A DNA stretch of 33,230 nucleotides, taken from the IMG/VR virus record IMGVR_UViG_3300020420_000691, positions 1 to 33,230 of that record; one strand, 5' to 3'. This DNA is from a virus. The translations under genes and the position numbers were made by a program. Below, one piece after another: positions 1,046 through 33,230 of the stretch (the stretch's first letter is position 1; every line of letters begins with the position of its first letter). Below the pieces are notes generated by a model, which was given only the letters and a program-made list of their open reading frames with translations, did no database searches and was not told where the DNA came from.

Positions 1046-1070
1046 AAAAAGAGACCTTTCGGTCTCCTCT
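1046..1070 (-). terminator. Intrinsic terminator with GAAA tetraloop
   Basis: On the minus strand GAGACC-GAAA-GGTCTC (1051-1066) forms a six-pair stem closed by a GNRA tetraloop. The stem can be lengthened by A-U and G-U pairs (1067-1070 with 1047-1050), and the 3' arm is followed by TTTTT (1046-1050). It begins right after the stop of the 71-aa gene and ends the unit that includes gp8, the DUF4815 protein and the two small genes. Confidence 0.85.
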
Positions 1071-1074
1071 TATG

Positions 1075-1290
1075 TTATGCTCCCCCTGCATCAACACTGT
1101 CAACAGTAGGTTCACCTTTGAGGATGTACTCCAGCGTTTCTATAGCACCTTGGAGTTTTAGTGCTTGTTGTTCATTCTGTCGAATCTTTTGAGCCATCTG
1201 TTGGTTCTCATCGACATATGCTTTTAATCTAGATTTGAAATCAGAAAGTAGTTTTTCCTGATCTACAGTTTCAGGTGCGTCAGCAGTCAT
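1075..1290 (-). CDS. Small coiled-coil protein, 71 aa
   Basis: A 71-residue acidic protein with no family I can name. Residues about 10-58 (from DQEKLLSDFK to ETLEYIL) are rich in charged residues, Gln and Leu in a heptad-like pattern and should form one long helix or coiled coil; the tail is short and Gly/Ala-ending. It has no signal peptide or membrane segment. Its ATG overlaps the stop of the preceding 76-aa gene as ATGA (1287-1290), and the leader is AT-rich without a Shine-Dalgarno site, so translation is probably coupled. It is the last gene before the terminator. Context suggests a minor structural or assembly protein, but function is unknown. Confidence 0.75.
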   Translation of the reverse strand: MTADAPETVDQEKLLSDFKSRLKAYVDENQQMAQKIRQNEQQALKLQGAIETLEYILKGEPTVDSVDAGGA

Positions 1291-1517
1291 TTGTTTAATA
1301 AAGATTGTTTAATTAAGTTTTTCAACTCAGATAATTCTGATTTTAGCACATCCATATCTTTTTGCATAGTTTCGATTTTGAGATCTTTCTCTTGTCGTCT
1401 CTTAGCAGCAGATCCTGGAGGGGTTGCTTTTGTATTTAGTATGGCACCAGACTTGGTGTCTCGTACTAAATCAGGTTTACCCTTAACGTGTTGAAAGTCA
1501 GGTTTCTTAGAGGTCAC
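1287..1517 (-). CDS. Small basic/coiled-coil protein, 76 aa, GTG start
   Basis: The protein begins MTSKKPDFQHVKGKPDLVRD. Its N-terminal half is basic and probably extended, with a Thr/Pro/Gly stretch near residue 30. Residues about 41-72 (KRRQEKDLKIETMQKDMDVL onward) form a clear heptad-like coiled coil. The start is GTG at 1517-1515, inside the last codons of the 2404-aa gene (11-base overlap); the next Met is deep in the coiled coil, so the GTG start is preferred. The 3' end overlaps the 71-aa gene as ATGA. No family is recognised. The pair of tiny coiled-coil proteins behind a huge structural gene may act as assembly factors or connectors, which is inference. Confidence 0.72.
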   Translation of the reverse strand: MTSKKPDFQHVKGKPDLVRDTKSGAILNTKATPPGSAAKRRQEKDLKIETMQKDMDVLKSELSELKNLIKQSLLNK

Positions 1518-13841: not shown

Positions 13842-13849
13842 TATTTATG
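13842..13849 (-). promoter_or_regulatory. Near-consensus T4-type late promoter for the 549-aa gene
   Basis: The minus strand reads CATAAATA, seven of eight matches to TATAAATA. It overlaps the TAA stop (13845-13847) of the 582-aa gene and lies 24 bases before the ATG at 13817, almost the same spacing as the gp8 promoter. Confidence 0.6.
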
Positions 13850-15593
13850 TAAGGTCGAATTCATAATTAGTTGCGTCAAGTCTAATATTATTTCTAGTAA
13901 AGTCTGGGTTATTATTGTCCCTATCAAAAGGAACTGAAGTCATATCAAATTTACCGACATTACTGTCCCACTTCAAAATACCAGATGTATCTTGTTGACT
14001 CGTTCCACCTGTTACGGTGAGGATTGCTAAGTTACTTGCAAGAGGTGAGTTAGATGCTTGTGTCTGTTCTCCAACAGGACCTATACACACACATCTATAC
14101 CTGTAACCTGACATAAACGCTTGTGCTACTACTTGTAAGGAAGAGTTATTCTGTCCTGTAAGGTTAGCCCAAGTAAATCCACCATCGGTAGATACTTGCC
14201 ACTGGTAAGCAATAGTACCAGCTTCAGGTTCAATTACAGCAATCAAACTGAAAGTTTGTGTACCACCATCAGCAATAGTTGCATTGGTAGGTTGATTTGT
14301 AATTACCAGACTAGGTGTTTGTGGTGTGCCACTACCTCCTTCACTTTCACCTCCACTAGCAGGAGGTGCACCAACACCTTGGTTGCTAGGTATATTTAGC
14401 GTCTGTTTTGATGAAAGACCAAATATGTATGGAAACTTAGGAGTCAGGTGACGATTAGGAACCACAGTTATTACACTACTCTCAGACATATTAGAATGAA
14501 GAGAGCAGAAATAATACAGTTGTGACGGTGCATCTTGAGCAACTGTGATCTCAGTATATGCACCAGCATCACCAGCAGATCCTACTGTAGTTACACCTGT
14601 TGTGTATGTTGTACCAGCACCGTGATAACCATTACTCGCATCAGAAAATAATAATTGGTGATTAGCAACACTATTATCAGAAAGTATAAACTTATATGTA
14701 CTACCTTTAACAAATGTTAAGTTTGGATAAAGTACGCCATCAATTCTGTATTTGTTACCATTTGATTCACTTGTAACAGTTACTGTATACTCTTTTGATT
14801 CAGTTTCATCACTCCACAATGTTATAAAATATGCAAATGTTCCACTTGGAAACTCTGGAGTATGACAGAAACGACCATTATAAACATCTAAATGTCTACC
14901 TGGTTTGCTAACGTTATATTCATAATCCTCCATCAAAGATCCTTTAGGAGGGTTTGCTAAAGTTAAACCATATGCAGGACGATTAGTAGCAATACTACTT
15001 CTCATTTGATACCCTGTCTCCATAAGTACTACTGGAGAAGTATTATCTGTTGGTAAATTATATCCATATGGTCCATATACAGGATAACCGTCAAATGCAA
15101 ATCCTATTATTTTAGAATGTCCATCAGGATGACGTAAATTATCTTGTCCAAATTGACTCTGACCATAGTAATCATTATATGAACTCATTACCTGGTTCTC
15201 TTGTAAACCAGTTAAAAGTTCACCATCGTGATAATGATACTGTCCAGTTGACTCAGGATGTCCACCATAACTATCTTCACCAAAATTAACCATTCCATAG
15301 TCAGCAGTGGCAACCCAATGAAATCCTGTAGGAGGACTACCACCAGAACCAGCACTGGGATTAAATATAGCAACACCGTTAGAAGTAAAACCAACAATAC
15401 CTAATGGAACTGAACTAGCACCAGTTGTATTTTCACCACCTCTATACAAGAAAGAATGATTGAAAGTATATGCTGCTACTGTGTTTGGATTATTTTCATT
15501 AGGAAATGTACCATAAGCTACAGGAGTTGGCATCCCATCACCTGTTATGGTTAATATCTTCGTCGCTGGATTGTAACTACCTTCTGCTGCCAT
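13845..15593 (-). CDS. YHYH-domain protein with nested cupredoxin and Ig-like domain, 582 aa
   Basis: The protein carries a YHYH domain: SNGVAIFNPS near 71-80, the tetrad YHYH at 119-122, FAFDGYPVYGPYGY at 165-178 and YNGRFCHTPEFPSGTFAYFI at 238-257. The domain's last piece, FPYIFG, appears only at 387-392, because a cupredoxin-like domain (about 266-380) is inserted. That insert has H312, C363, H366 and M369 (CSLHSNM). A Gly/Ser/Pro linker (about 405-427) leads to an Ig-like domain at 427-528 (YQWQVSTDGGFTW). The end (GILKWDSNVGKFD) recalls fibre proteins. The ATG overlaps the giant gene's stop as TAATG and no Shine-Dalgarno is seen, so translation is probably coupled. A virion surface role is likely; any redox or metal role is unproven. 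Confidence 0.83.
   Translation of the reverse strand: MAAEGSYNPATKILTITGDGMPTPVAYGTFPNENNPNTVAAYTFNHSFLYRGGENTTGASSVPLGIVGFTSNGVAIFNPSAGSGGSPPTGFHWVATADYGMVNFGEDSYGGHPESTGQYHYHDGELLTGLQENQVMSSYNDYYGQSQFGQDNLRHPDGHSKIIGFAFDGYPVYGPYGYNLPTDNTSPVVLMETGYQMRSSIATNRPAYGLTLANPPKGSLMEDYEYNVSKPGRHLDVYNGRFCHTPEFPSGTFAYFITLWSDETESKEYTVTVTSESNGNKYRIDGVLYPNLTFVKGSTYKFILSDNSVANHQLLFSDASNGYHGAGTTYTTGVTTVGSAGDAGAYTEITVAQDAPSQLYYFCSLHSNMSESSVITVVPNRHLTPKFPYIFGLSSKQTLNIPSNQGVGAPPASGGESEGGSGTPQTPSLVITNQPTNATIADGGTQTFSLIAVIEPEAGTIAYQWQVSTDGGFTWANLTGQNNSSLQVVAQAFMSGYRYRCVCIGPVGEQTQASNSPLASNLAILTVTGGTSQQDTSGILKWDSNVGKFDMTSVPFDRDNNNPDFTRNNIRLDATNYEFDLT
14010..14315 (-). other. Ig-like domain in the 582-aa protein
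   Basis: Residues about 427-528: NQPTNATIADGGTQTFSLIA, then YQWQVSTDGGFTWANLTG and YRYRCVC, the strand and Trp/Cys pattern of Ig-like domains common on phage surfaces. A similar domain ends the giant protein. Confidence 0.65.
14454..14798 (-). other. Cupredoxin-like domain inserted within the YHYH domain
   Basis: Residues about 266-380 of the 582-aa protein. LTFVKGSTYKFILSD, NHQLLF (H312) and LYYFCSLHSNM (C363, H366, M369; bases 14487-14507) give a complete type 1 copper ligand pattern. The piece is flanked by YHYH-domain sequence on both sides. Confidence 0.62.
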
Positions 15594-18500
15594 TAGTTGT
15601 CATCGAATATTTGGTCAGGTGTGAAGTTATCAACAGTTGTTGCACCGATGTTGATTGTCAATGTAGCAGCGTTAGAGAGTATAGGTGTAGCACCTGTGGA
15701 TGTTAATCCGACTCTAAATTCATCGCCACCATCACCCTGAGTTGTAGCAGGAGTAGTGTAAACACTTGATGTAGCACCATCAATATTTATCCAAGTATCA
15801 GTTCCGTAATCCTTCTTCTGCCACTGATAATTGATTGTATTTCCACTAGGTGTTGTGGTTGCAACTACAGTAAACGCAGCAGTCTGACCTTGGTTAACAG
15901 TTACGTTAACTGGTTGAGAAGCAATATTGATGAATGATTCACCTTGTGCTTGAGATTCACCTGTTGGAACGTAATTAGGATCGTAGATATCAATACCACC
16001 ATTAACACCTTCACCTGTAGGTCCTAAGAATGTATCTGCAACTGTTGTTGAAACAGTAACTGTAGGTTGTACATATCCTTGTCCTGCGTTCTTAACATCA
16101 ATACGTGCGAGACCAACAAGTGCTTTGATCTTACCACCAAAACCAGAGGAGGAAATCACATCAACGTTTGGACGAGATGTATAACCATCACCTGAGTTTG
16201 TAAGTATTGCTTCAGTAATACGTCCTTTCTCAATAGTTGCAAGGGCATCTGCATTACGTCCACGTACAGATCCTGTATACTCGAATGTAATTAGAGAGTT
16301 AGAAGATTCAATAAGAGCAACTTCTCTTTCAAATTCTTCACCTTCAATGAATAAGTTATCTCCAGATTCAATAGGAGGTACGACTGTTGCAGCAATAACG
16401 TCAACATCAGAACCAACGTAAGAGAATGCAACGAACGTAGAACCAGCACGAGGAACTTCAGAGAAGATAATACGTGAACCAACAAGTTCAAAACCAATAC
16501 CTGGTTCCTGAATAACACCATTTAACTGACAGATAATGTTATTTTCAGGTAATATCGTATTACTTTGTACACCATCAGTTAGTGTTAGTGAGTAGAAGAC
16601 TCCAGCTAACTTCAAGTTGAATGAGTTACGTAATGAATCAAAGTCGAATGATATATCATCTAACTGTCTTAACTTACCTACGTAAACACCGTGGAAACTA
16701 GATCCAGCAGCAGGAGCTTCAGTGAACTGAATATTATCTGAGAACGCAGTAAATGCGTTATTACCGCCTGGTGGTTGTAGAATACCATTCACAAATATCA
16801 TCATATGTCCAGCAGGATCTGGGAAGTATGCTGTACCGTTAGTTTGAGTTAATTTAAAGTTTTTCTGTACTCCGTCAAATCCTCTAAAGAACCTTCTAAC
16901 ACGACCACGTAAAGTCTTAGCAACAGAACAAGCACCTCTGAATCCATAATCACCGATGATCTGAGCATTCTTGACGAATGTTCCAGAAGTATCACCCAAA
17001 TGAATGATCGCACGAATACCAATTTGTTCAATTTTTTCGATTCTTCCATATGCACTCGTATTTGTAATAGTTACCGCAGCAATTCCTTGTGTATAAACAC
17101 TTGGGAAGTTTGAACCAGCAGGAATCTTAGAAAGTGTATATGCAGCGTCACCAGCAACAACTGTTAAGTCATCACCAATAGCAGAGAATCTACCTGTTTC
17201 ATTTGCAAGGTATACGTAATTGTTATCGGCATCGTGCTCAGTAACAACAAATGTATGTCCTACAGACTGTCCAGCATTCTGTAATTGTAAGGTATCACCA
17301 ACTTGGAATGTATCACTAACTCCAGTATCAGTAATTAACGCAGAATATGTAAATCTGGTAATCGTTGTTGTATGGAGATACTCACCAAAGTTAGGTAATT
17401 GATTGAATCCTTCAACCTCAATAATCTGATCAGTGACAGAACCGTAAATAACATCACCAGGTTCAAACGAACCTACTACAGTGGATACATCATATGTTAC
17501 TCGACCTGATTGATTGTCAAGCAATGAACCATCATTATTTCTAACAATAAGAGCATTTGCTTTTCCAGAGTCTTGCTTACTGTATATTATATCCGTAGCG
17601 ATAAATTCACCCTGTTTGAAGTTGACAAGGATACGTTTATGTGGAGATGCTGATGCAGTAGCAGTTGCACCTGATGTAACACCCTCAAGATTATCTGAAT
17701 TTGCGAATGTTCCAGAAGTCATTACTATCTTAATATAAGTTGCATTGTCAGTTGCAAGAACTGTACCAGAATTTCCTGTAGCACCTGTCTTAACAATAAC
17801 CTCACCATTTGTAAACTTAACAGCTCCACTTGTATGTGTTACTGGAACGTAATCTACTTTGTATAGAACTTTTGCAAGGTTATCTTGTATTCTGATTACT
17901 TCAGCATATGCACCACTTGTACCACCGAAGAATATATCAGCAGTATTAATACCACCACTTATAGGTGTAGGAATATCTCTAGTACCATATGTGGTTTCAA
18001 CACGTTCGATACCGTTATTAACACCAACAGAGAATGTATGAATTTGACCAGGTGTGCCAGGTGTAAGACTTGTTATTACATCTCCGTCAATATATTCTGC
18101 TAGGTATATTTTGTTTGCAGTTGTATTTGGATGGATATAATATTGTGATCTATCAAGTTCTGTAATAGCAGTACCAAGAACAATATAATTAACCACATCG
18201 TATGCTTCAAATTTATGACCAACAGAATCTATAGAACCATCAGTATTGACAGCAACACCAACATCAACAGGTTCAGTTAGATATACTGTAGGAAGTGAGG
18301 ATTTCTCAAGACCTGTCATTACTAAGTGGAATAATTGATGAATCTTATGTACAGCAGTTGCAGTAGGACGTAATTCTCTATTAGTATAAGGAACCTCAGA
18401 GTTATTAGGACCTGGGTTGAGACAATCTTGCTCTACGGTATTAACCATATATTCTTTTATTGCTTCAGCGTGATATATCAAGTATGTTCTAAAGACACCA

Positions 18501-21500
18501 GGATAAGCAACAAAGTTACCATTACTATCAAACCAACTATTAACTAATTGAATAGTTGCTATATTACCACCAGTAATTATATCGTATATCATTGCCTTAC
18601 GGATATTTGTACCAAATACAATTTCAGCAGCATATCCTGAGTAATTATTGACTGACTTATAATATGCTTCTTTATCAATATACTCGTGGTTAAACATCAA
18701 TAGTTTTGCTGCCTGTCGATACATCTCAGGTGCACCACCCAATGTATCCTCAATTAAGTCTGCTAATGTTGTAGCAGCAGATGTTACGTTGTAACAAATA
18801 CCACCACCACTGAATAGTGTATTACCAGAAGAATAAGGTATAGGAGTAGAAGTCTTAGTAATACTTTGATTTACAAGGTAACTACCATTACCAGCAGCAG
18901 CTTCTCTGATAACACCTATTGGTATAGAGAATAATGTATTGATTGAAGACGCTACAACAGCACATTCACCATTACCAGCAGTGTCATATGTGATTGTTGT
19001 ATCTCTTACAGAAGCACGTTCACCTGTCAGTGGCCATTCACCTGGTAGTGTTCTTGTAATATTATCTAAGTATGATCTTGGATTACTTGTATTACTTGAA
19101 TCAAATAGATTGACAGTAATATTCATCAATGTTGTAATAGCAGATGCTTGGTTAGAACAACGAGCTGCTCCACCACCACCTTGTACCCAGTTGACTGCAT
19201 TAGAACTAGCACTTACAAATGTGTGTGCATAATTTCCACCATACTCTACAGCACCAGATGTTGCACTTACAAATGTATGTGGATATTGTTCACTTGTAGG
19301 TGTTGGGTTTACATTAACCTTAATACGTCCATTTCTAAATCTAATACCGTGAGGTGTAGCAGATACAAATGTATGTGTATAATTTCCACCAACACTGACT
19401 GAGTTTGCAGCAGCACTAACGAATGTATGAGTGGTTGTGTTTGTAGAAGGAGTTCTACCAGATGCTAAAACATTAACCGTGATTGTTGTGTCTGTAGCAC
19501 TCTTGACTGTTAGAGGAACATCGTATGCTCTATCTTTTTTCCAAGTAATATTACCAGAAGTAGAAGTTTGATATGTATGAGTTGTTGTGTTTGTAGAAGG
19601 TATTTCAGTAGATAATAAAACAGTAACGTCAAATGTATTTGAAGTTACGTTAGATATCTCTAACCAAGATCCAGATGCAGGGTCAGTAGCACGTGGATAT
19701 GTATGATCAGTCTGATAGTTATCTTCTGCACATCTGAATGTTATAGAATTATCAGCAATCTTTATTTGATCACCATTTGCAAATCCGTGTTGAGGAACAC
19801 GAAGATTCATCACACCTGTTTGTCCATTATATGATGCGTCAGTTGAGGTATGAGTAGTAGTTGTTGTTCTAGGATATGAGTGAGTTGTTGCGTTATTATC
19901 TTCTAAACAAGTGAATGTGAAAGCATTATCAGAAAGTTTGATGTGTGCACCAGCAACTAAACTATGACTACCGATTGTGATAACCATATCACCTGTTGTT
20001 GGGTTATATACAGCATTAGATGGACTGTATAATTGTGTTGGAGATGTACCTACATTAACTTCAAATGTATCATTAGTTTTATTCTGAACAGGAAGATATA
20101 TGTTATGAGCAGGGTCAGTTAAACGAGGATATGAATGAACACTACCATAATTATCCATTGAACAAGTAAAGTTCAATGAATTAGTGTCAAACATTACCTG
20201 ATCACCATTATTAAATCCGTGAGCAACAGAAGTGATCACCATAATACCAGTTATAGGATTATATGTTGCTCCAGTTGCAGTAAATGTAGAATCTGTTACT
20301 TGTAAAACTTCTAATGATTTACCACTAGCATAATCTGTTGAACGAGGATAAGAATGGTTGGTTGAATTACCATCTTTTGTACAGGTAAATGTAACTGCGT
20401 TATCAGGTAATCTGATATGTCTACCAGCAGTAAGATTATGATTACCAATATCTAAGAATAGATTACCAGTTGCTTCTTCGTAAATAGCATATCCTACATC
20501 GTGAGTTCCATTAGATGTTGTACCAACGTCTACAGTAAATGTATCATTTGTTCTTGCAGTGATTGGTAGAGTTGCACCAGAGGCTGGATCCCAAGGTCTT
20601 GGATATGATTTGTTAGACTGATTACCATCAAATGCACAATTAAATACTAATGAATTTGGATCAAGAGTAATACTATCACCAACCTGAAGATTGTGTCCTG
20701 CTTTTGTAAGAACTAGATTACCGTTTGTTGGAGTATATGTTGCATCTGTAGGAGTTAACTGTCCAGTTGTTGCACCGTTGTTATCAATAGTAATAGTGTT
20801 ATCGTAGACAGCATATCCTTCAGTATATCCATTAACAGTAACTAACTCTTGTCTCATTACCTGAATAGCAATATCTCTTGCTTGTTCAAAGATATACTTA
20901 ACTTGTGTTGCTTGTGAGTTAATGTGTTGTACAGCATTACTAATAGTGATATAGAAATCACTAGCATACCAAACAATATTGTTACCACCGTGTGCTAAGT
21001 TAAATGTAACTGCTTCAAGAACATCAACTACATCATCAACACAAGACTGATAACCATATCCACCAAATGTAAGACTAGAATATTGTGACAAACCACGACC
21101 TACAGCAGTAGTAGCGATAAATCTTAAATTATTTTTAATTTCATTAGAAGCATCGTAATACTTGTTACCAGCTTCAGTTGATGTTGCAAATCCACCACCA
21201 GCGTTATAATCGTAATCAGGACGTGATTCTATACCACCTCCACCACCACCGAGTGCTCCACCTGATTCGTATGCAGATTCATAGGGATTAAACCCAAGTT
21301 TGTTCTGGATGGCGAGGATTGCCATATCACGTGCCATTCTCATAGCATAGATGGTTTCATCTGCTTGATCTGTCACGTGCTTCAGACCCATATCAGTATT
21401 CAAATATAATTCAGATGCTTCGTATACTTTCTCGTTAACACTAAATCTTAAATCGTGCATAACACCTTCTAAGATATCAACAATATCATCTTCACAATGA

Positions 21501-24500
21501 ACCTTACCACCAGGTACTCTGAAGTTATAATGTTTGAATGCACTTTGTTTAACTGTTAGATCAACTGCTTCTTCAGCAATAGTACGTTTGTTAGCACCAA
21601 TAAGATTAGCAGCATCTAAAGCACGATGTGATCCTGTGTAGATCTTTGGATCTGGAGGATAGAATGTACTTTCTGTTATTATGTTACCTGTTAAGTCGTA
21701 GTTAACTGCTGCATCATATGCTTTTCTAAATGCTGGTAAGTCAGTGTATTGGAACTGGAAGAAGTCATCAATAGTATTTGCATTTGTAGAACCAGCAGGA
21801 AGATTAGCAATATTCTCATTACGAGATAGTAATAAGTTTTGTAGTGCTTTTTCCATCAACCACTTAGCATATCCAATCGCTTCTAGCATTGGAAGTAACT
21901 CGTGTTCTACATCACCTATAAATCCAGCACTATTCAAGTATGAATCAATAATTCCTTGAGCATTAGAGTTACCACCAGTAATTAAATCTGTAGCAATAGC
22001 AGGAATGATATGATCCCTAATATCTCTTACACACTTCTCACGACCAGGTGAACCACCAGGTATATAAAGTTGATTTACATCTACGTTATTGATATTAACT
22101 GTATATCTTTCTTCTAACCAGTAAACAACTTCATCAGCAATACATTTACGGTTGAAGTATAGTAAATCAGCACCATCTCTAAATCTATGTCCTGTAGGAC
22201 CTAATACATCAAGAAGGTCATCCATCAATGACATAATATAAGTTGTGATGTTACTGCCAGGTGTAGCACTGAAGTAATTTGGAACACGAATACGTGTTGT
22301 GTACTCCCCAGTTAAATCAGTTTGATCTTTTGTAATTACATCGATACAAAGTTTAGCAACTTCTCTCCAAACATACATTGATTGAAGTAGTTCTTCATTA
22401 ACGTGTGCTAATTCACCTTGTTGGTTAGCAAGATATCCTCTACCAATAATAATACTATTATAATTACCACCATATCTAAGATCTTTATAAATTGCAGGAA
22501 TAATATACTCATAAGTATCTCTCAAACACTTATTTGTACCTGATAATGATGTACCAGTATCGCCAGGTATCACAAAGTCTGGATACTTAGCTTTCATTCT
22601 ACCCACTGCTTCTTCAGCAATCCAGAATTTGTTTGTTTCAATAATATCTGCACAATCTCTTTCTACCTGACGACTAAGATCAACCTCTTCAGTCATTATT
22701 TCACTTCTCCACAATTCTATACCATCAGCAGATGCAGTTGATGTAATTGATTGTTGGAAGGTAGCATATATTTCACCTTTAATAATAGGAATAGGTGCCT
22801 CACCATCAAATCCAAATGATAGATTTAGATCAGAAGAATCATATACTGCTGATGGTATAAAGGATGCTGTATATTCAGCAATTCCTTTCTTGACCATAAA
22901 GTTTTCCATATGACCAGTGAATGCTGTAGAGTTAGAAGCATTTGCACCAATCTTAATTGGTAAGTTACCATAATTTGTATTATCTGTATAACTTCCTGCT
23001 AATGTTCCACCAACAAATAATCTTGTAACACCAGTAGAACGAGTTACAGCAATATGTGTCCAAGTATTTGCAACTACCCCAGTAGATGTAATTCTATCAC
23101 TATTACCTACATTCCAACGAATTTGATTATTATTAAGTAGTAGATAGAATGCACCAGTATCAGATGTGCTACTACGGAAGTCTAGTAACATCTGTACTCC
23201 ACTAACAGAAGTTGCTTTTATCCATAATTCCATAGTAAAGTCACCAGCAGCAACAGAACCATCACCTAGAGCAAGTTTATCAGTTGCTGGATATGTTAGA
23301 TGTGCACTACCATTGAAATCTAATGATCCAGTACCAACAGCATAATCTAGATTATCTACAGTAACACCAACATTAGTTAATAGAGTGTTAGTAATATATT
23401 CTCCAACAGTAAATGCTCCACTAGGATCTTTACTGTAAATCCATTTGTTACCACCATTAGAACCAATAACTGATGCAGTATTTCCAGATGTTATACCTTT
23501 AACTAAATCACCAAATACGAAGAATCCACCTGATGACTTATTCTTATAACTGTGTTTAACACACTTAATAGTCTCAGCATCTTGGAAAGCATATGCTGGT
23601 TCAACTCTTTGTAAGTTAAAGATAGACCATTGATATGTTGTTTTATCTGCCCCAGTAGGATCTAAAAGAGTATCAGTAATAATCTTAAAGAAGTTAGTTA
23701 CAGCAGATGTTTGGTTTACACAAGCATTATCACCTACTGGATATGAAAGTCTACCTGATGAGTAATCTGCTTGAGGTGCAGTCTTAGTTACTGCTGCTTG
23801 GAATGCTTCTCTTGTACCAGGTGATGCAGTTGTACCAAGATTGGTAATAAGAATGTCCATCAATGTAGTGATGGTTGATTGTACAGCAGCACAATTACCA
23901 GGATCATTAGTAATTGAACTATCAATAACCTGAACCCAACCGTGTGAAGTATCTACTTTAGTAACAGCATTATTTTGTATAATCTGAATTGCCATTGTCT
24001 TTGCTTTTGTGAAAGCATTAACAATAGTGTTTCTATCACCTGAAGTAACACCATAGTGAAGAATACGATCAGTTGCTTCCCATATGAAGTCATTACCACC
24101 GTGTGCAGTGTTATAACCTAATGCTTCAATAACATCAACAATATCAGATAGACAATGCTCATCTCCACCTGAAACTGTATAACCAGGATTCTGTAATTTA
24201 GCATAATGTAATGACTCGTGAGCAATATACCATTTGTTAGCAAGTAATAGTGCTCTAGCATCACCGTGACTATTATCAGTCACCACATACTCAGGAGTTA
24301 CAGTTGTATCTCTCCACTGTTGTTTTGTAGTATGAGATGCAACTATAACTTCCATATTGATGCACTTAAGAGCAAGATCTCTTGCTCTCTCCATTGCATA
24401 TACAGTCTGTGCTACTTGCCCATCAACGTGATATATTGAGTTTCCTTGAACGTAAGTATTAGCGATATCCCAAACTTCAGAGTTACCATCAAACTTAACT

Positions 24501-27500
24501 TGCCAAGCAATCATATTAAGAACATCAACTATATCATCAATACAGTTTTGATTACCTGTTGGAATAGTAAAGGAGGGGTAGAAAGCCAACATTAATCCCA
24601 CGGCTTCTTCAGCGATAAACTCAGCGTTCTTTTCTAATGCCTCTGCTGCGTTAAATGCACGAGTATCAGGTTGGATTCTCATTGATGAGTTAGTGAAGAA
24701 TAATTTCTTCAAACGAACATCTGTGCCAGCAGCAAAATCAGTACCAGTTAAATTATCATAACGTATTTCTTGGTTACGTACGTTTTCAAAGTCTAAGAAG
24801 TCTTGGTTATTTGCAGTATCGGTATAAAGTTCAGTTGGGTTAATAACTGTTTCTGATATGTTATCAAGAATAACATTAGGATATGTAATAGAAGGAACTC
24901 TCTGGAATACAAGACCAAAGAAAGTGGATGAAGGAGATAAATCAACAGTATCAATAATTTGATTAGATATTGAATCTTGGTAAGGAGCAATACTAATAAC
25001 TGCTGCTGCAATCTTAGAACGTGCAGAATAAATTATATCATTAAACTTAATTTCAAATTCACCAGTTTCATATGCAGCAGTACCAGATGTACGAGAAACA
25101 ACTAAGTCATCAGATATAACACCATCTAATAAGTTATTCTCTTCAATAATAGCAAACTTACCTTGTAGGTTAGTAATTCTTTCACCTTGTTCGTAGATAG
25201 TCTTAGATGTAAGTTGTTGAACGTTAGATAGTACGGCATTAAACCCAGTTGAACTGGCGAGGACGTTATCGTTGATTTGGAAACTACCAACTACACTAAG
25301 AACATCAATATAATCAACACCTGAATCAATTACTAAAGCAGTACCTTCATTTTGTAGAGAACGAACTGTATTACCTAATAATGGGAAGATACCACCAATA
25401 GTACTAAATGTCATTCTAGTAATGACAAGTTGTGAGAACTGTACCTGTCTGAACTTAATTCTAGAAGGTGCTTTAGGTGCTTCTGAGAATACTATAGAAG
25501 GTCCTGTTGTAGAGAATGAAGTACCTGGTGACTGTGCAACACCATTTAACAGAATGAACATCTGGTCTTCTGTTGCAGTTACTGATGAACCTTCAACATT
25601 GAGAGGGAACTGGGTTTTAATCCCATCAAATTGCTCAGAGATGTTATCAATCTTCTTAACAATAGAGGTTAAGATTTCCTCAGAGTTAGTAAGTCTCTTC
25701 TGTCTGAATAATACTTCAGTATTATTAAACTCAGTGTATATTGGTTGTGCGTTAGCAAATGATGTAATCTGGTTAATATTAGTGAAACTGTTGATATTAA
25801 CTTCTTTAACAAGGTCAGATACAACCTTTCTTCCAGAAATATCTTTACCACCAGTAATTGCTAGTTCACCAAATAGGTTGAATCCAACAGGGTGGTTTGT
25901 TTCAAGAACTGGTTTTCTCCACTGGTTGATAGGTGTCTGAGACTTAATAACGTAGGAGAAGTTCTGATAGAAGTAACTATCTTGAATTTTCTGAACAATC
26001 TCTGATGGTTTACCAACGTCATCGATAAATTGACCTGGTGTAGTGGTTAGAGATGCAATTTCAAGTGTACCTCTTGCAATAGAGAGGTTATCAATCAAAC
26101 CAGATGCACGAGAAACTTGACCTGTTACACGTTCACCAGATAACCATACACCGTCATAGTTCTCAAGTTTAAGGATTCTAGGTCCGATCTGCCAACCTTC
26201 GTTAGTAGAAACATAACCAGTAGCAGATGCAAGTTCAAGAGATGAACCTTGATAAACAAGTTCACCCTCTAAGAAACGAGATGTTTCAACGATAGCAGTT
26301 GCTTGACCACCAAATACCTCAGTAAGAAGTACCTGTCTACCTTCACCTTGTGTCAAGAATGTGATGTAAGAACCAGATTCAGCATCTAACTGTGTTAGAG
26401 AGATACGTAACTGGTCAGATTCAAGACCATTTGCCTCTCCAGCAATAGCATAGTAAGTCTGAGAAGAAGATAAACTAACCAAACCAGCAGAACTTGGTTT
26501 TGGTAGAATACCAACTGTAGATCCAAGACTTTCTGCTCTTAATTGTACTTGTGCTCCGTTTGTTATACCGTGTGGGAAGTTAAACTGTAGATATCCCAAA
26601 TCAACGTTAACAACGTAGTTAAATTCTGATTTAAGTGTAACTGATGGTTCAGAACTGTATCCTGAGCCAGGATCTTTAATAATAATCTCAGAAAGTCTGT
26701 TGTTTTTAACTATTGCATCAGCAGCAGCACCAGATCCACCACCACCTTCGATTACAACAGCAGGAGTTGAAGTATATCCAGAACCTGGATCAGTTATCTT
26801 AATTTGTGCTAGTAAAGCGGTATTAAACAGTTGAAGGTTTACGGGGAATGTTATCTCAGGTTTTAGTGTATAGTCGTGAGAGTAACCGAAACCAAATTCA
26901 TTGTTCTTAAGTTTTTTGATCTTACCGATTGATTTACCTTGTAAGAACACAGATGCACCTGATCCTTCAGAAGGTATAACAACATCAAGAATACCACCAG
27001 AACCAGCAAGTAGAGGTCCTAAGATACCAGGTATGGCATCAATGTCAATAGATGCAGTAGTATATCCTTTACCAGCAGATGTTAGTTCAACAGCAGTGAT
27101 AACACCAGTAAAGTCACCATCATCAGTAACCGTGATATTACAAGAAGCACCTTCACCATCTCCACCGATAGGAACGTTATAATAGATGCCATTTACGTAT
27201 TCTGTACCACCATTAGTGATACGAACTTTTTCTATTTCTCTGTTAGATGCAATGTCACTAACAATAGGTAATTTTTGGTAGAATCCACCTGGATTTACCA
27301 GCTTGATGCTCGCAATAGGTCCAATTGCTTTTGAAGATGTTGTACTGTAAGAACTACGAGGTAGACCGAATTCATTGTTCCCCACAGCAGCAGTAGTTTT
27401 TTCTGGTTCATTTAGTAAAGCGAAGTCGAATGTTTTTCCAGCATTGCTGGTTCCTGTAACAGTGAATGTTCCTGCATAAGGTGATGGTATAACGTCAATA

Positions 27501-30500: not shown

Positions 30501-33230
30501 CATTGAACAATACCATCAGGATTATTAGCATTATCAAAACCTGACTGATATTTGATAACAACTATATCAGGGTTGTATACAAGACTTGTTGTATTTGGAG
30601 ATAATTCACCAATAACGTAGATATTGTGTGGATTTGAGTTTTCAACATATAATGACTTAAAACTAAGATTCTTAGTTCCTGATGCTGGTAATGATGGAAC
30701 TAAAGCACGTTTCCAAAGAAGACGACCATCACTATTAAACTTAGCAAGCATACCTGATGTATCACCATTAGGTATAGAACTATGTCCACAAACATAGAAT
30801 GTACGATCATCTGCTACTTGAATATCATTAATAGAAACGATTCCAGACTGCTCTTTTAGAAATGCTAAGAAATATGATGCTTTCTTAAATCTTTGTGGAT
30901 GTGATACTCTAATCTGTGGAGGATTTGTAGGACTATATCCAGAACCAGAGTTAACAATATTAGCACTATTAACAGCACCAGCCTCTGTTCTATTCAAAGT
31001 AAGTTGAAAATCTTGACCTTGAGTAGATATTAATTCATATGTTGGAGGAATATCATCAGAATAACCTAAACCTGTCTGAGTTATAGTAACATTTTCAACA
31101 CCAGGTATAACTTTAACTTTATATGTCTTATTGGTAGAATCTAATATTGGTGTCTCTTCAACAATAATTTCATCACCACTACGTAATTCGTGTTCAGTTG
31201 CAGTTGTAATACGTCCATATGGCATATCTGATGACATATAAGAGGAATATCCCTGTATAGAAAGACCAGCAACAGCACTTACTTTTGCAGAAGCACCAAA
31301 TCCTTGTGTATCATCATTATTAAAGAACAATTTATCACTAACTTTATAAGAAACACCTGGATTTTCAATAACAAATCCATCTATTTGAGCATCTTCAAAT
31401 TTAGTAGTAGTTTCAATATCAATATCAACTTCAGATCTTGTAGATACTTTAGGGTAGTAATCAAATAATTGTAATACAGGTTCTTCTGCAATAGTATAAG
31501 GTGTAGTATCTTCTAAGTTATTAATAACTCCATCACGGTTTGTATCTTCAATTTCAAAGATTAACTCAAGACCATCTTCAGTTACAAGAATATCAGTGTC
31601 TTGGTTTGGTTGACGATCAATATCTATGTCAACATTTTCATAAGGATCTCTAAATCTAACAACATCAGCAGGAATATTTGTTTGAACAGCATTCTGACTG
31701 AAGTTCCAAGAATCAGGTTGTGAGTATAGTTGAGAACCACATACATATGGGAATACTGGATTACCAGCGTCTGATGCGTCAATAGCAATAAAGTATGCGT
31801 ATACACCTTCAGGATATTCAGGAGTCTTACAAAAACGACCATTGTATTGATCTAAGTCACCTTCTTGGAAAGCATACTCATAATCTTCAATAAATGATCC
31901 TGCTGGATATTCTGTTAGTAAAGGACCATCAACTCTAACTGGATTGGGGTTAGTTGCACTATCAAAAAGAAGTACTGCTTTAATTTTATATGAAGATCTA
32001 ATACGACGTACACCAGATGATTGGTTTGTAGCGTCAATGTATCCATAAGGACCGTATATTGGGTTTCCATCAAATGCCCATCCTAAAATAGGAGAATGTA
32101 AATATCCTGTTGATAATTCTTGTAGTTGCTGAGTTGATTGATTTTTAAATACGTTATCACCTAAAACGTATCTTAATTGTTTTGGATCTGATACGTGTGC
32201 ATATTCACCACCATATTGTGTGTTATATCCTGCAAACACATAACCACGTGCCCCGTCAAAGTTTGCTCCAAGTTCTTGCTGGAGGTTACGAGTCCATTCA
32301 AATACATTAGCAGTAAATGTTCCTTGAGAACCAACTGCTTCAAGACGAATAGTAGTGCTGCCTGTAGTATATCCAATACCTCTGTTTACAACACTAACAC
32401 CAATAACTTTACCTCTATCTTCTCCAACACTACCTATTGACGCTTTTGCTACAGCACCATATCCATCTCCACTAATAATGATCTCTGGAGCAGTTGTATA
32501 TCCATTACCAGCAGCAATAATAGCGATAGATACAATTCTACCGTTAATAATAATTGGTTGTGCTACAGCACCTTCACCTGAGTTTAACTTAATTGTAGGA
32601 GATGAAGTATATGCAGATCCTGCTGATGTTATTGCTACAGACTGAATAGGACCTCTAACACTTGCAGTAGCAGTTGCACCACTACCTCCACCACCTGATA
32701 TAGAAACGTCAGGTTGTGATGTATATCCTTGACCTGGTGATTCAACAAGAACTCTTGATACAACACCATTTGTTATAACAGCAGTCGCAGTAGCACCAAA
32801 TCCACCTCCACCAACAATAGAAACTAGAGGAGATGATGTATAACCAGTACCACCAGTGTCTACTTCAATTTCACTTAAAGCACCGTTAACAGTAACACTA
32901 GCAGCAGCACCTGAACCGCCACCACCACTAATCTCAATAATAGGAGGATTTGCAGCGTCATATCCTTCACCAGCAGAACCAATAGCGATTGATGTTATAC
33001 CACCAAACTTAATTTTAGTTTCTGACTTATATGACCACACAGATACACCATTTACCCAACAACCAATCGGACCGAATGATGTTTCATCACGTTTTGATAC
33101 AGTTTCTATGATACGTGGTATACGTACAAGTTTACGTTGATTACCTGGTAATAATGCTGATCCAACAAACGGACCTACCTCATAGTTTGGTATACCAGAT
33201 GATGCGATGTAAGAATACTGTGAATTGAAG
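15593..33230 (-). CDS. Giant multidomain virion structural protein, N-terminus outside window (at least 5878 aa)
   Basis: One uninterrupted frame of 5878 codons runs from the right edge to TAA at 15595-15593. A GTG at 33040 is not the start: 63 open in-frame codons precede it, including GPIGCWVNGVSV, the first piece of a YHYH domain. Modules in order are: Gly-rich beta repeats, the rest of the YHYH domain, an EF-hand-like loop, a seven-blade propeller-like region, LamG-like 1, a carbohydrate-binding-like module, a ligand-less cupredoxin copy, more Gly-rich repeats, an LNGVxQxPG module, seven degenerate helical repeats with LamG-like 2 among them, five beta repeats, HTFVSA repeats, two more LNGV modules and an Ig-like end. 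The mass would exceed 600 kDa. It lies upstream of gp8, where T4 has gp7. A long tail or baseplate appendage for host contact is the best inference. Confidence 0.88.
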   Translation of the reverse strand, partial: FNSQYSYIASSGIPNYEVGPFVGSALLPGNQRKLVRIPRIIETVSKRDETSFGPIGCWVNGVSVWSYKSETKIKFGGITSIAIGSAGEGYDAANPPIIEISGGGGSGAAASVTVNGALSEIEVDTGGTGYTSSPLVSIVGGGGFGATATAVITNGVVSRVLVESPGQGYTSQPDVSISGGGGSGATATASVRGPIQSVAITSAGSAYTSSPTIKLNSGEGAVAQPIIINGRIVSIAIIAAGNGYTTAPEIIISGDGYGAVAKASIGSVGEDRGKVIGVSVVNRGIGYTTGSTTIRLEAVGSQGTFTANVFEWTRNLQQELGANFDGARGYVFAGYNTQYGGEYAHVSDPKQLRYVLGDNVFKNQSTQQLQELSTGYLHSPILGWAFDGNPIYGPYGYIDATNQSSGVRRIRSSYKIKAVLLFDSATNPNPVRVDGPLLTEYPAGSFIEDYEYAFQEGDLDQYNGRFCKTPEYPEGVYAYFIAIDASDAGNPVFPYVCGSQLYSQPDSWNFSQNAVQTNIPADVVRFRDPYENVDIDIDRQPNQDTDILVTEDGLELIFEIEDTNRDGVINNLEDTTPYTIAEEPVLQLFDYYPKVSTRSEVDIDIETTTKFEDAQIDGFVIENPGVSYKVSDKLFFNNDDTQGFGASAKVSAVAGLSIQGYSSYMSSDMPYGRITTATEHELRSGDEIIVEETPILDSTNKTYKVKVIPGVENVTITQTGLGYSDDIPPTYELISTQGQDFQLTLNRTEAGAVNSANIVNSGSGYSPTNPPQIRVSHPQRFKKASYFLAFLKEQSGIVSINDIQVADDRTFYVCGHSSIPNGDTSGMLAKFNSDGRLLWKRALVPSLPASGTKNLSFKSLYVENSNPHNIYVIGELSPNTTSLVYNPDIVVIKYQSGFDNANNPDGIVQWQRDIAGISGTTRRDYATSIHLDQLGRVMIGGYTDSNSLSPDDMWVALLDLDGSVMEKRKIASASGNEHLHQLLWKANDTFLFCGISDPAGSSDIILGETFYDGVTIEVQWSKIITNSSYKFTDPTMSIDEYGSVYVTATAVNTDGKNYGVLYTKFDNDVYTSTVVSKMFVPTGTYASCKNGGVKFDVFGNIDLSCSVERDFNNVESVTSKISWNSGNILNSASASETNGIGYAATVVSSDNSGDTIVAGNKVESVQLAIFNWNTADNLAEDTYNDTLATATNKAWYATGNAVIDQTKKYDGTSAIKLDAPNSLALQYGADVATSWTVEGFWALGSTQYAANNTTPHLYTVTDNVANEVKVGLDASSGANAGKVFLVLGGATIYSTATTYVTPFNAEAFVHVAFSKERVGVGNYVYRVYVNGVEAINNTSTTVDVNLKDVTIGPKGTPSSSDSWIGWIDNVAVSQTATRIEAYTPALVTGTNTTTQAFIYKLDKDKTKLGSFTLNDVETGHTLTTASNSSYTFNTQSTTVSPWAIGPAGIQILDYGDVVANHVPGSLTFTSTDETFASRTATIPTPGGKKLLLTTTVIPKFYFRDAKYSSIDLVKTLTFNQNATFTKGSTLQQYSVIGGADVVSAYGVIVDTGVNFVRIGKIIGTFDNTKLLKSTAGDANELAQSFVEESTYPQWVTNNPYTTGDIVYNDKKWYTASSTATSGTIAPVHTGGTTTDGNVNWAYTSASGIFIVDLANTSYSGGTLNQFASWKPFSASDYTIKIEEIYSDSTFIKGDTIDADAVNLTFSVDATGKVATFGGLLGVKKISIAATLSKDVVPSGSLANTDIVYCSATSRHNFEVNDIIFTENFSSNEYNGSFFIKEIFTSRDFTYNLRSTAVQDPTFSGSGSSVSNVNIYAKHPKLLFVRGHQYIFDLDDSSNLGYYLSFSKDNQFKLEYPFINILREGTPGFTDDDSPTPLVKFIINEDVTNISYYFDPSRTLPSNSPVGEGSFIDVIPSPYAGTFTVTGTSNAGKTFDFALLNEPEKTTAAVGNNEFGLPRSSYSTTSSKAIGPIASIKLVNPGGFYQKLPIVSDIASNREIEKVRITNGGTEYVNGIYYNVPIGGDGEGASCNITVTDDGDFTGVITAVELTSAGKGYTTASIDIDAIPGILGPLLAGSGGILDVVIPSEGSGASVFLQGKSIGKIKKLKNNEFGFGYSHDYTLKPEITFPVNLQLFNTALLAQIKITDPGSGYTSTPAVVIEGGGGSGAAADAIVKNNRLSEIIIKDPGSGYSSEPSVTLKSEFNYVVNVDLGYLQFNFPHGITNGAQVQLRAESLGSTVGILPKPSSAGLVSLSSSQTYYAIAGEANGLESDQLRISLTQLDAESGSYITFLTQGEGRQVLLTEVFGGQATAIVETSRFLEGELVYQGSSLELASATGYVSTNEGWQIGPRILKLENYDGVWLSGERVTGQVSRASGLIDNLSIARGTLEIASLTTTPGQFIDDVGKPSEIVQKIQDSYFYQNFSYVIKSQTPINQWRKPVLETNHPVGFNLFGELAITGGKDISGRKVVSDLVKEVNINSFTNINQITSFANAQPIYTEFNNTEVLFRQKRLTNSEEILTSIVKKIDNISEQFDGIKTQFPLNVEGSSVTATEDQMFILLNGVAQSPGTSFSTTGPSIVFSEAPKAPSRIKFRQVQFSQLVITRMTFSTIGGIFPLLGNTVRSLQNEGTALVIDSGVDYIDVLSVVGSFQINDNVLASSTGFNAVLSNVQQLTSKTIYEQGERITNLQGKFAIIEENNLLDGVISDDLVVSRTSGTAAYETGEFEIKFNDIIYSARSKIAAAVISIAPYQDSISNQIIDTVDLSPSSTFFGLVFQRVPSITYPNVILDNISETVINPTELYTDTANNQDFLDFENVRNQEIRYDNLTGTDFAAGTDVRLKKLFFTNSSMRIQPDTRAFNAAEALEKNAEFIAEEAVGLMLAFYPSFTIPTGNQNCIDDIVDVLNMIAWQVKFDGNSEVWDIANTYVQGNSIYHVDGQVAQTVYAMERARDLALKCINMEVIVASHTTKQQWRDTTVTPEYVVTDNSHGDARALLLANKWYIAHESLHYAKLQNPGYTVSGGDEHCLSDIVDVIEALGYNTAHGGNDFIWEATDRILHYGVTSGDRNTIVNAFTKAKTMAIQIIQNNAVTKVDTSHGWVQVIDSSITNDPGNCAAVQSTITTLMDILITNLGTTASPGTREAFQAAVTKTAPQADYSSGRLSYPVGDNACVNQTSAVTNFFKIITDTLLDPTGADKTTYQWSIFNLQRVEPAYAFQDAETIKCVKHSYKNKSSGGFFVFGDLVKGITSGNTASVIGSNGGNKWIYSKDPSGAFTVGEYITNTLLTNVGVTVDNLDYAVGTGSLDFNGSAHLTYPATDKLALGDGSVAAGDFTMELWIKATSVSGVQMLLDFRSSTSDTGAFYLLLNNNQIRWNVGNSDRITSTGVVANTWTHIAVTRSTGVTRLFVGGTLAGSYTDNTNYGNLPIKIGANASNSTAFTGHMENFMVKKGIAEYTASFIPSAVYDSSDLNLSFGFDGEAPIPIIKGEIYATFQQSITSTASADGIELWRSEIMTEEVDLSRQVERDCADIIETNKFWIAEEAVGRMKAKYPDFVIPGDTGTSLSGTNKCLRDTYEYIIPAIYKDLRYGGNYNSIIIGRGYLANQQGELAHVNEELLQSMYVWREVAKLCIDVITKDQTDLTGEYTTRIRVPNYFSATPGSNITTYIMSLMDDLLDVLGPTGHRFRDGADLLYFNRKCIADEVVYWLEERYTVNINNVDVNQLYIPGGSPGREKCVRDIRDHIIPAIATDLITGGNSNAQGIIDSYLNSAGFIGDVEHELLPMLEAIGYAKWLMEKALQNLLLSRNENIANLPAGSTNANTIDDFFQFQYTDLPAFRKAYDAAVNYDLTGNIITESTFYPPDPKIYTGSHRALDAANLIGANKRTIAEEAVDLTVKQSAFKHYNFRVPGGKVHCEDDIVDILEGVMHDLRFSVNEKVYEASELYLNTDMGLKHVTDQADETIYAMRMARDMAILAIQNKLGFNPYESAYESGGALGGGGGGIESRPDYDYNAGGGFATSTEAGNKYYDASNEIKNNLRFIATTAVGRGLSQYSSLTFGGYGYQSCVDDVVDVLEAVTFNLAHGGNNIVWYASDFYITISNAVQHINSQATQVKYIFEQARDIAIQVMRQELVTVNGYTEGYAVYDNTITIDNNGATTGQLTPTDATYTPTNGNLVLTKAGHNLQVGDSITLDPNSLVFNCAFDGNQSNKSYPRPWDPASGATLPITARTNDTFTVDVGTTSNGTHDVGYAIYEEATGNLFLDIGNHNLTAGRHIRLPDNAVTFTCTKDGNSTNHSYPRSTDYASGKSLEVLQVTDSTFTATGATYNPITGIMVITSVAHGFNNGDQVMFDTNSLNFTCSMDNYGSVHSYPRLTDPAHNIYLPVQNKTNDTFEVNVGTSPTQLYSPSNAVYNPTTGDMVITIGSHSLVAGAHIKLSDNAFTFTCLEDNNATTHSYPRTTTTTHTSTDASYNGQTGVMNLRVPQHGFANGDQIKIADNSITFRCAEDNYQTDHTYPRATDPASGSWLEISNVTSNTFDVTVLLSTEIPSTNTTTHTYQTSTSGNITWKKDRAYDVPLTVKSATDTTITVNVLASGRTPSTNTTTHTFVSAAANSVSVGGNYTHTFVSATPHGIRFRNGRIKVNVNPTPTSEQYPHTFVSATSGAVEYGGNYAHTFVSASSNAVNWVQGGGGAARCSNQASAITTLMNITVNLFDSSNTSNPRSYLDNITRTLPGEWPLTGERASVRDTTITYDTAGNGECAVVASSINTLFSIPIGVIREAAAGNGSYLVNQSITKTSTPIPYSSGNTLFSGGGICYNVTSAATTLADLIEDTLGGAPEMYRQAAKLLMFNHEYIDKEAYYKSVNNYSGYAAEIVFGTNIRKAMIYDIITGGNIATIQLVNSWFDSNGNFVAYPGVFRTYLIYHAEAIKEYMVNTVEQDCLNPGPNNSEVPYTNRELRPTATAVHKIHQLFHLVMTGLEKSSLPTVYLTEPVDVGVAVNTDGSIDSVGHKFEAYDVVNYIVLGTAITELDRSQYYIHPNTTANKIYLAEYIDGDVITSLTPGTPGQIHTFSVGVNNGIERVETTYGTRDIPTPISGGINTADIFFGGTSGAYAEVIRIQDNLAKVLYKVDYVPVTHTSGAVKFTNGEVIVKTGATGNSGTVLATDNATYIKIVMTSGTFANSDNLEGVTSGATATASASPHKRILVNFKQGEFIATDIIYSKQDSGKANALIVRNNDGSLLDNQSGRVTYDVSTVVGSFEPGDVIYGSVTDQIIEVEGFNQLPNFGEYLHTTTITRFTYSALITDTGVSDTFQVGDTLQLQNAGQSVGHTFVVTEHDADNNYVYLANETGRFSAIGDDLTVVAGDAAYTLSKIPAGSNFPSVYTQGIAAVTITNTSAYGRIEKIEQIGIRAIIHLGDTSGTFVKNAQIIGDYGFRGACSVAKTLRGRVRRFFRGFDGVQKNFKLTQTNGTAYFPDPAGHMMIFVNGILQPPGGNNAFTAFSDNIQFTEAPAAGSSFHGVYVGKLRQLDDISFDFDSLRNSFNLKLAGVFYSLTLTDGVQSNTILPENNIICQLNGVIQEPGIGFELVGSRIIFSEVPRAGSTFVAFSYVGSDVDVIAATVVPPIESGDNLFIEGEEFEREVALIESSNSLITFEYTGSVRGRNADALATIEKGRITEAILTNSGDGYTSRPNVDVISSSGFGGKIKALVGLARIDVKNAGQGYVQPTVTVSTTVADTFLGPTGEGVNGGIDIYDPNYVPTGESQAQGESFINIASQPVNVTVNQGQTAAFTVVATTTPSGNTINYQWQKKDYGTDTWINIDGATSSVYTTPATTQGDGGDEFRVGLTSTGATPILSNAATLTINIGATTVDNFTPDQIFDDN
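15645..15940 (-). other. C-terminal Ig-like domain of the giant protein
   Basis: SQPVNVTVNQGQTAAFTVVA, INYQWQKKDYGTDTW and LSNAATLTI show the same pattern as the Ig-like domain of the 582-aa protein, followed by a short acidic tail ending in DDN. Confidence 0.65.
16010..16235 (-). repeat. C-terminal pair of Gly-rich beta units
   Basis: NSGDGYTSRPNVDVISSSGF and NAGQGYVQPTVTV, the same unit as at the N-terminal side, placed just before the Ig-like end. Confidence 0.6.
16405..16890 (-). repeat. LNGVxQxPG modules, copies 2 and 3
   Basis: FVNGILQPPG with FTEAPAAGSSF, and QLNGVIQEPG with FSEVPRAGSTF, in tandem after RRFFRGFDGVQKNFKL. This beta module is widespread in phage tail and fibre proteins. 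Confidence 0.65.
19190..19620 (-). repeat. HTFVSA short repeats
   Basis: THTYQTS, then THTFVSAAANSV, THTFVSATPHGI, PHTFVSATSGAV and AHTFVSASSNAV. The DNA for PSTNTTTHT is duplicated: 19425-19450 and 19575-19600 differ at one of 26 bases. Confidence 0.75.
19610..20750 (-). repeat. Five tandem beta repeats, about 80 aa each
   Basis: Approximate units: 20510-20750, 20275-20505, 20035-20275, 19850-20035 (shortened) and 19610-19850. Consensus: A-x-YNPxTGxMVxT, H-x-L/F-x2-G, DNSxTFTC, DNN, HSYPRxTDPASG, then T-x2-TFxVxVGT. Unit 4 lacks the part after HSYPR. Confidence 0.8.
22845..23375 (-). other. LamG-like (concanavalin fold) domain 2
   Basis: GSLDFNGSAHLTYPATDKLA, FTMELWIKATS, TWTHIAVTRSTGVTRLFVGG and FTGHMENFMVKKG give a clear LamG_3 pattern. 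It sits between helical copies 2 and 3. Confidence 0.75.
25425..25635 (-). repeat. LNGVxQxPG module, copy 1
   Basis: FDGIKTQFPLNVEG, FILLNGVAQSPG and IVFSEAPKAPSRIKF; the same module recurs twice near 16,400-16,890. Confidence 0.6.
26625..27330 (-). repeat. Second block of Gly-rich beta repeats in the giant protein
   Basis: Units NPGGFYQKLP, NGGTEYVNGIYYNVPIGGDG, SAGKGYTTAS, DPGSGYTSTPAVVIEGGGGS and DPGSGYSSEP. The NGIYYNVPIGGDGEGA stretch closely resembles NGTYENIPVKGDGTGG in gp8. Confidence 0.65.
27485..27790 (-). other. Degenerate cupredoxin-like domain without copper ligands
   Basis: KHPKLLFVRGHQYIFDLDDS and VTNISYYFDPSR followed by GEGSFIDV align with the strand order of the two ligand-bearing copies, but Asp replaces the ligand Cys and the ligand His and Met are missing. 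Confidence 0.5.
28295..28470 (-). other. Carbohydrate-binding-like small module
   Basis: PYTTGDIVYNDKKWYTASST, then APVHTGGTTTDGNVNWAY, resembles the CBM5/12-like and phage-tail units of the form Y-x2-GD-V-Y-x-K-x-W/Y ... P-x-H-x2-GT-x-TDG-x-V-x-W-x-Y. Confidence 0.5.
29085..29665 (-). other. LamG-like (concanavalin fold) domain 1
   Basis: KYDGTSAIKLDAPNSLALQY, WTVEGFWAL, FVHVAFSKER, YRVYVNGVEAIN and IGWIDNVAVSQTATR follow the strand order of LamG/LamG_3 domains. Confidence 0.6.
29715..30845 (-). repeat. Seven-unit propeller-like region
   Basis: Seven blade-like units start with FYVCGHS, IYVIGELS, VMIGGYTD, FLFCGISD, VYVTATAV, IDLSCSV and TIVAGNK; several continue with a strand ending in a K/W-x-K/R pattern (LAKFNSDGRLLWKR, VVIKYQS, WVALLDLDGSVMEKR, AIFNWN). 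This resembles SBBP/delta-60 type beta-propellers. Confidence 0.55.
31511..31546 (-). other. EF-hand-like calcium-binding loop
   Basis: The 12 codons encode DTNRDGVINNLE, with acidic or Asn ligands at 1, 3, 5, 9 and 12, Gly at 6 and Ile at 8, the pattern of EF-hand and dockerin loops. Only a single loop is seen. Confidence 0.5.
31721..32104 (-). other. C-terminal half of a YHYH-like domain lacking the YHYH tetrad
   Basis: Contains HSPILGWAFDGNPIYGPYGY, GSFIEDYEYA, YNGRFCKTPEYPEGVYAYFI and VFPYVCG. These match the corresponding blocks of the 582-aa protein one by one, but no YHYH tetrad is present in the visible part. Confidence 0.7.
32320..32998 (-). repeat. Tandem Gly-rich beta repeats near the N-terminal side of the giant protein
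   Basis: About five and a half units of roughly 40 residues: AGEGYDAANPP, GGTGYTSSP, GQGYTSQP, GSAYTSSP, GNGYTTAP and GIGYTTGS, separated by GGGGSGA-type turns. They sit between the first and second halves of a YHYH domain. Confidence 0.75.

Follow-up and report, generated by a model that had tools for sequence, protein, structure and literature searches.

The window, that is, the whole stretch of DNA analysed here (33,230 nucleotides of virus record IMGVR_UViG_3300020420_000691 in IMG/VR), carries on its minus strand an open reading frame of 5,878 codons which lacks its 5′ end; the domains predicted in it and the genes that follow it are as follows.

15593..33229, minus strand: giant reading frame, 5′-truncated, 5,878 codons and stop; probable gp7-position baseplate wedge protein, PHROG 701
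31775..32296, minus strand: YHYH domain (PF14240), frame residues 312-485, E=6e-30
24356..24649, minus strand: phycobiliprotein-like repeat 1, CIDD, Cys2896; AlphaFold2 model with flanks, 24332-24685
23972..24259, minus strand: phycobiliprotein-like repeat 2, CLSD, Cys3026
22892..23284, minus strand: LamG/concanavalin-like domain (PF13385), frame residues 3316-3446, E=2e-19
22331..22654, minus strand: phycobiliprotein-like repeat 3, CLRD, Cys3568, full C-x-R-D; in the piece that matches PF00502
21836..22171, minus strand: phycobiliprotein-like repeat 4, CVRD, Cys3733, full C-x-R-D
21302..21613, minus strand: phycobiliprotein-like repeat 5, CEDD, Cys3912
20849..21151, minus strand: phycobiliprotein-like repeat 6, CVDD, Cys4063
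18431..18712, minus strand: repeat 7, degenerate, without the C..D segment
13845..15593, minus strand: next gene, YHYH protein (PF14240), cupredoxin-like motif CSLHSNM
12168..13817, minus strand: protein with gp9/gp10-like N-terminus (PF07880), C-terminal cupredoxin-like motif CTSHPAM
10298..12163, minus strand: baseplate-wedge-like protein, PHROG 22827 / 708
8726..10261, minus strand: gp8 baseplate wedge, PHROG 438, PF09215
1507..8721, minus strand: structural-region protein of 2,404 aa, PHROG 358; in P-HM2 the gene following gp8 is called VrlC

Positions 1-990 hold a PHROG 697 structural protein with an N-terminal Mtd_N domain (PF18454, E=1e-12) that runs off the edge. Isolated weak Pfam matches within the giant frame (bCoV_NAB, DUF5522) were below cut-off and were ignored.

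Extent and integrity of the giant frame

An earlier note on this DNA, made from the letters alone, had described a single uninterrupted minus-strand frame of at least 5,878 codons with its start beyond the edge. This description is borne out: an ORF scan of the window finds no internal stop in 15593-33229 (base 33230 is part of the preceding codon), and each of the five remaining frames of this segment holds 235-824 stops, with no open run longer than 208 codons. Extension of the contig, a check proposed in the note, is supplied by five near-identical IMG/VR contigs, which at the window edge share 97-99% identity with it: in them the frame starts 1,053 codons upstream of that edge, at an ATG just after a stop. 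The closest relative, an independent contig (G001), is 98.4% identical to the window over all 17,638 bases with two gaps; its version of the frame encodes 6,931 aa (746.6 kDa) and contains no stop. The pN/pS ratio is 0.12-0.39 in each eighth of the frame; therefore, the entire frame is coding and under purifying selection. The independent contig and the pN/pS values both uphold the earlier view of a coherent frame free of assembly error; the frame is taken as genuine, and, to the extent that sequence allows, a chimeric join or a frameshift is excluded.

That the long frame arose by chimeric assembly, or that it normally gives rise to several proteins, we regard as extremely improbable. Chimerism is refuted, and against either idea stand the independent contig, the unbroken frames of 11 relatives and purifying selection along the whole length. 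Nothing in the sequence speaks for several products; at the peptide coverage of 13.5% reached for an orthologue found in virions (see below), however, processing in the virion is conceivable. Internal starts or a split gene were considered and dropped, as a Shine-Dalgarno-like sequence precedes only two in-frame starts and the frame is conserved.

A probable gp7-like core and a family of giant relatives

The giant frame matches the profile of PHROG 701 from end to end (columns 1049-6121 of 6,136), with a variable middle, and tblastn with its N-terminal piece finds matches in 464 phage records, nearly all of cyanophages, at up to 64% identity. In S-WAM1, P-TIM40 and Syn33 the gene lies directly after gp25-gp6, which are outside the window itself, and the order around the giant gene in cyanomyovirus relatives is the 6-7-8 order of T4. 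The orthologues S-SZBM1_208 (6,619 aa), S-WAM1 P090810_085 (6,737 aa), P-TIM40_99 (7,351 aa) and Syn33_092 (6,376 aa), annotated as “baseplate wedge initiator” or “structural protein” and assigned to PHROG 701, share with the protein of the window the position after gp25-gp6, the repeats, the size class (6,376-7,351 aa) and 60-64% identity in the N-terminal piece. The protein of the window is set apart from them by the number and arrangement of its modules (seven repeats), and its middle is just 14-50% identical to those of S-WAM1 and P-TIM40. Relatives in 11 contigs form open frames of 6,180-8,574 aa; G003 and G004 (the IMG/VR contigs of L009 and L018) encode 8,566 and 8,572 aa, more than the P-TIM40 protein. 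Judged by its sequence, the giant frame is a typical representative of an already known family, the giant baseplate wedge proteins of T4-like cyanomyoviruses. It is, as the earlier note had it, among the larger phage proteins, though relatives are as large or larger.

Mass spectrometry of CsCl-purified virions of S-SZBM1 has detected S-SZBM1_208 (724 kDa) with 71 peptides (13.5% coverage; PMC9146016); therefore, neither the size nor the virion location of such a protein is new. The search for the protein in virions, also proposed in the note, has in effect been carried out on this orthologue. The further contention that folding and packing into the virion must need help found no support; the analysis turned up no dedicated chaperone.

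The first ~1,000 aa of the protein are encoded upstream of the window. A profile of this region (A2) shares with T4 gp7 the signature DFYxxKGxxxSxxFLFKxLxxExV over ~30 residues (hhalign E=1e-4, probability 55.6%), and the core matches gp7 in PDB entry 9f4a with E=0.078; a direct search of the PDB with N-terminal windows gave nothing meaningful. PF23786 (Baseplate_wedge) matches eight of 11 family members, weakly in the nearest relative. Members of this phage family with SAR11 or Methylophilales hosts encode only 874-1,016 aa at the gp7 position. T4 gp7 and the gp7-position proteins of HTVC008M, Mosig and Melnitz agree with the cyanophage protein in gene position, in the signature DFYxxKG...LFKxLxxExV and, in most members, in PF23786, but comprise 874-1,032 aa and have neither the extension of ~5,900 aa nor phycobiliprotein-like repeats. 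From position, signature and length we infer that the cyanophage protein consists of a gp7-like core and a very long extension, which is beta-rich and contains glycine-rich GxGY repeats.

Phycobiliprotein-like repeats in the extension

Past the gp7-like core, at frame residues 2861-4933, lie seven helical repeats of ~100 aa each, unmentioned in the earlier note, which sequence profiles and structure prediction show to be domains of the globin-like phycobiliprotein fold; the case is made by the agreement of independent methods, namely sequence profiles, profile-profile comparison and an AlphaFold2 model. A 1,000-aa piece matches PF00502 (Phycobilisome) at repeat 3 with 23.4 bits (gathering threshold 22.2), most single repeats falling below that threshold, and NCBIfam CpeA matches weakly at the same repeat. 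Searched against 177,635 PDB sequences, a profile of 22 repeats reached a best E of 4.7e-6 and one of 84 repeats 5.3e-7, with phycobiliproteins or their derivatives in all 60 matches listed for each. When the repeats were compared by hhalign with an alignment of phycobiliproteins from three cyanobacterial genomes, the score was 48.8 (E=2.2e-8) and the probability 95.3%, which is strong, yet not certain; none of 200 column-shuffled profiles attained that score (best 19.0), and the reversed profile scored 10.5. The AlphaFold2 model of repeat 1, computed with 84 phage sequences, has a pLDDT of 92.2. Each of the 50 Foldseek and 50 VIA matches listed for it is a phycobiliprotein. The Foldseek E-values are individually weak (best 0.025); the best VIA match superimposes 109 of 118 residues at 2.2 Å with a Z of 12.5, and helical models can reach a Z of 13-14 by chance. 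A model of four repeats jointly, made without an alignment, was discarded (pLDDT 32.7).

With the phycobiliproteins of PF00502 (phycocyanin, phycoerythrin, allophycocyanin) the repeats share the predicted fold over those 109 residues, the positions of Cys84 and Asp87, an asparagine near residue 47, and Gly-Gly after helix E. They differ from them in their low identity (~15-20%), in being shorter and starting near residue 27-40, in the replacement of Arg86 in most cases, and in standing as tandem modules within a virion protein. Convergence of helical bundles would account for the weak single Foldseek values and for Z values that chance can produce; it is nevertheless a quite improbable explanation, given the significant sequence profiles, the failure of every shuffle, the conservation of functional residues and the single family from which all listed fold neighbours come. 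We infer that the modules descend from antenna proteins of the host.

The repeats appear to be confined to cyanophages. Of 50,697 records, tblastn with two different repeats matched 343 and 365; apart from one labelled “Marine”, each of these carries the name Synechococcus, Prochlorococcus or “Cyanophage”. Profile searches of whole records found no repeats in T4, HTVC008M, Mosig, Melnitz, phiM12, the podovirus P-SSP7 or the siphovirus PSS2, nor in S-TIM5, Ma-LMM01, S-CRM01, P-SSM2, S-SSM7 and S-CAM9. They are present in the 6,619-aa frame of S-SZBM1 and occur in further tail genes: P-HM2 has them in a second frame, of 3,682 aa, and S-PM2 in two frames of 3,340 and 3,792 aa. Phycobiliprotein-fold domains inside a giant baseplate protein appear to be new, at least to open full-text papers; a search of PMC full text, with subscription papers and preprints outside its scope, found no report of such repeats. 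The modules provide an initial structural entry point to a protein that ranks among the largest of phages.

As a separate matter, the record of S-PM2 (NC_006820.1) has 16 tRNAs annotated inside the short tail fibre gene (163108-175392; L244), in which ARAGORN finds none; it finds nine farther upstream, and the tRNA coordinates of the record look shifted.

The candidate bilin site and the possible role of the modules

The C-x-x-D of the phage repeats aligns with Cys84 and Asp87 of phycobiliproteins, and Cys84 is the bilin-binding site that all cyanobacterial phycobiliproteins possess (PMC2327270). Among 84 divergent repeats, filtered to <85% identity, the cysteine is kept in 82, the aspartate at +3 in 83, and an asparagine at the start in all 84; these are the most conserved positions of the repeats. 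Arginine stands at the Arg86 position in just 14 of the 84. The window itself retains the cysteine in six of its seven repeats, with a full C-x-R-D in repeats 3 and 4.

The protein as a whole is quite probably the baseplate wedge protein encoded at the gp7 position of a T4-like cyanomyovirus, with host-facing domains that bring it from ~1,000 aa (T4, SAR11 phages) to ~6,931 aa. Its N-terminal core would join gp6 and gp8 in forming the baseplate wedge, as gp7 does in T4, and the extension of ~5,900 aa, with its beta-rich glycine repeats and its YHYH, LamG and phycobiliprotein-fold modules, would be displayed around the baseplate and contact the cyanobacterial surface. There it may substitute for long tail fibres, which are reported absent in S-SZBM1, S-WAM1, P-RSM6 and P-TIM40 (PMC9146016), the four isolates that match the window best in the C-terminal part.

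As to what the modules do, we incline slightly to the idea that they are apo-domains, in which the host's antenna fold has been adopted as a rigid spacer or as a module for interactions and the cysteine serves packing or some other contact. The frequent loss of the Arg86 position, the missing Cys-Asp segment of repeat 7, the repeat-positive phages that show no CpeT (PF06206), and the generic adhesion-type domains in the remaining extension are all consistent with it. Less easily reconciled is that a lone cysteine is nearly as invariant as the best-kept asparagine across repeats of ~25% identity, which exceeds the needs of a spacer, and that it lies exactly at the bilin position with the +3 aspartate alongside. 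These residues would be expected of real biliproteins, to whose conserved cysteine a phage or host lyase attaches a bilin; the pigment so carried in the virion might give protection, or serve redox or light sensing at adsorption. We consider this doubtful, though the distribution of CpeT lends it some colour. Of 36 records, 19 have both repeats and CpeT, four have repeats without CpeT, 13 have neither, and none has CpeT without repeats (Fisher P=1e-6; P=0.004 within 27 T4-like cyanomyoviruses), figures that ignore shared ancestry and come from a hand-picked set of records. In the S-PM2 group CpeT is encoded 3-6 kb upstream of the repeat-bearing tail gene. However, lyases of the CpeT type are believed to act on Cys153 rather than Cys84, and the simpler role proposed for phage CpeT is a boost to host antennae (PMC10452541); the scarcity of arginine at the Arg86 position also counts against bilin attachment, and we found no reports of coloured or fluorescent virions.

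A parallel with light has been noted as well. Adsorption is light-dependent in P-HM2 but not in P-SSP7 (PMC7112961); P-HM2 carries repeats with CARD/CIRD and P-SSP7 none. As the two phages differ in everything else, the parallel is only a lead. The fullest version of the biliprotein reading, that bilins made by host or phage are attached by phage CpeT to cysteines of the giant baseplate or tail protein, so that the tail is pigmented and possibly light-responsive, is unlikely in our estimate. If true, a pigmented tail could explain both the CpeT of these phages and light-dependent adsorption, to which a phycobiliprotein-fold module offers a link. The CpeT of cyanomyoviruses, and the bilin reductases of some, have hitherto been explained as support of the host antenna; a module with a bilin-type cysteine in a virion protein would be the phage's own candidate substrate for CpeT. 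Even if no pigment is bound, a photosynthetic antenna fold would have been recruited into a virus particle.

A link between the repeats and bilin reductase (PF05996) was also tested and is unsupported: P-SSM2 and the SAR11 phage Mosig encode a reductase but no repeats, and the reverse holds for S-WAM1, S-PM2, Syn33 and S-SZBM1. The gene of the Pelagibacter phage Mosig EXVC030M (MT647606.1, 39713-40231; PF05996, E=1.5e-18) belongs to the bilin reductase family; the SAR11 host of this phage is non-photosynthetic.

The two tail genes at 12168-13817 and 13845-15593 each carry a cupredoxin-like motif of the type-1 copper kind with an upstream histidine; the former also matches NCBIfam amicyanin weakly (E=0.0056, below cut-off). 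The same tail may hold a second fold of photosynthesis type, a putative cupredoxin-like one.
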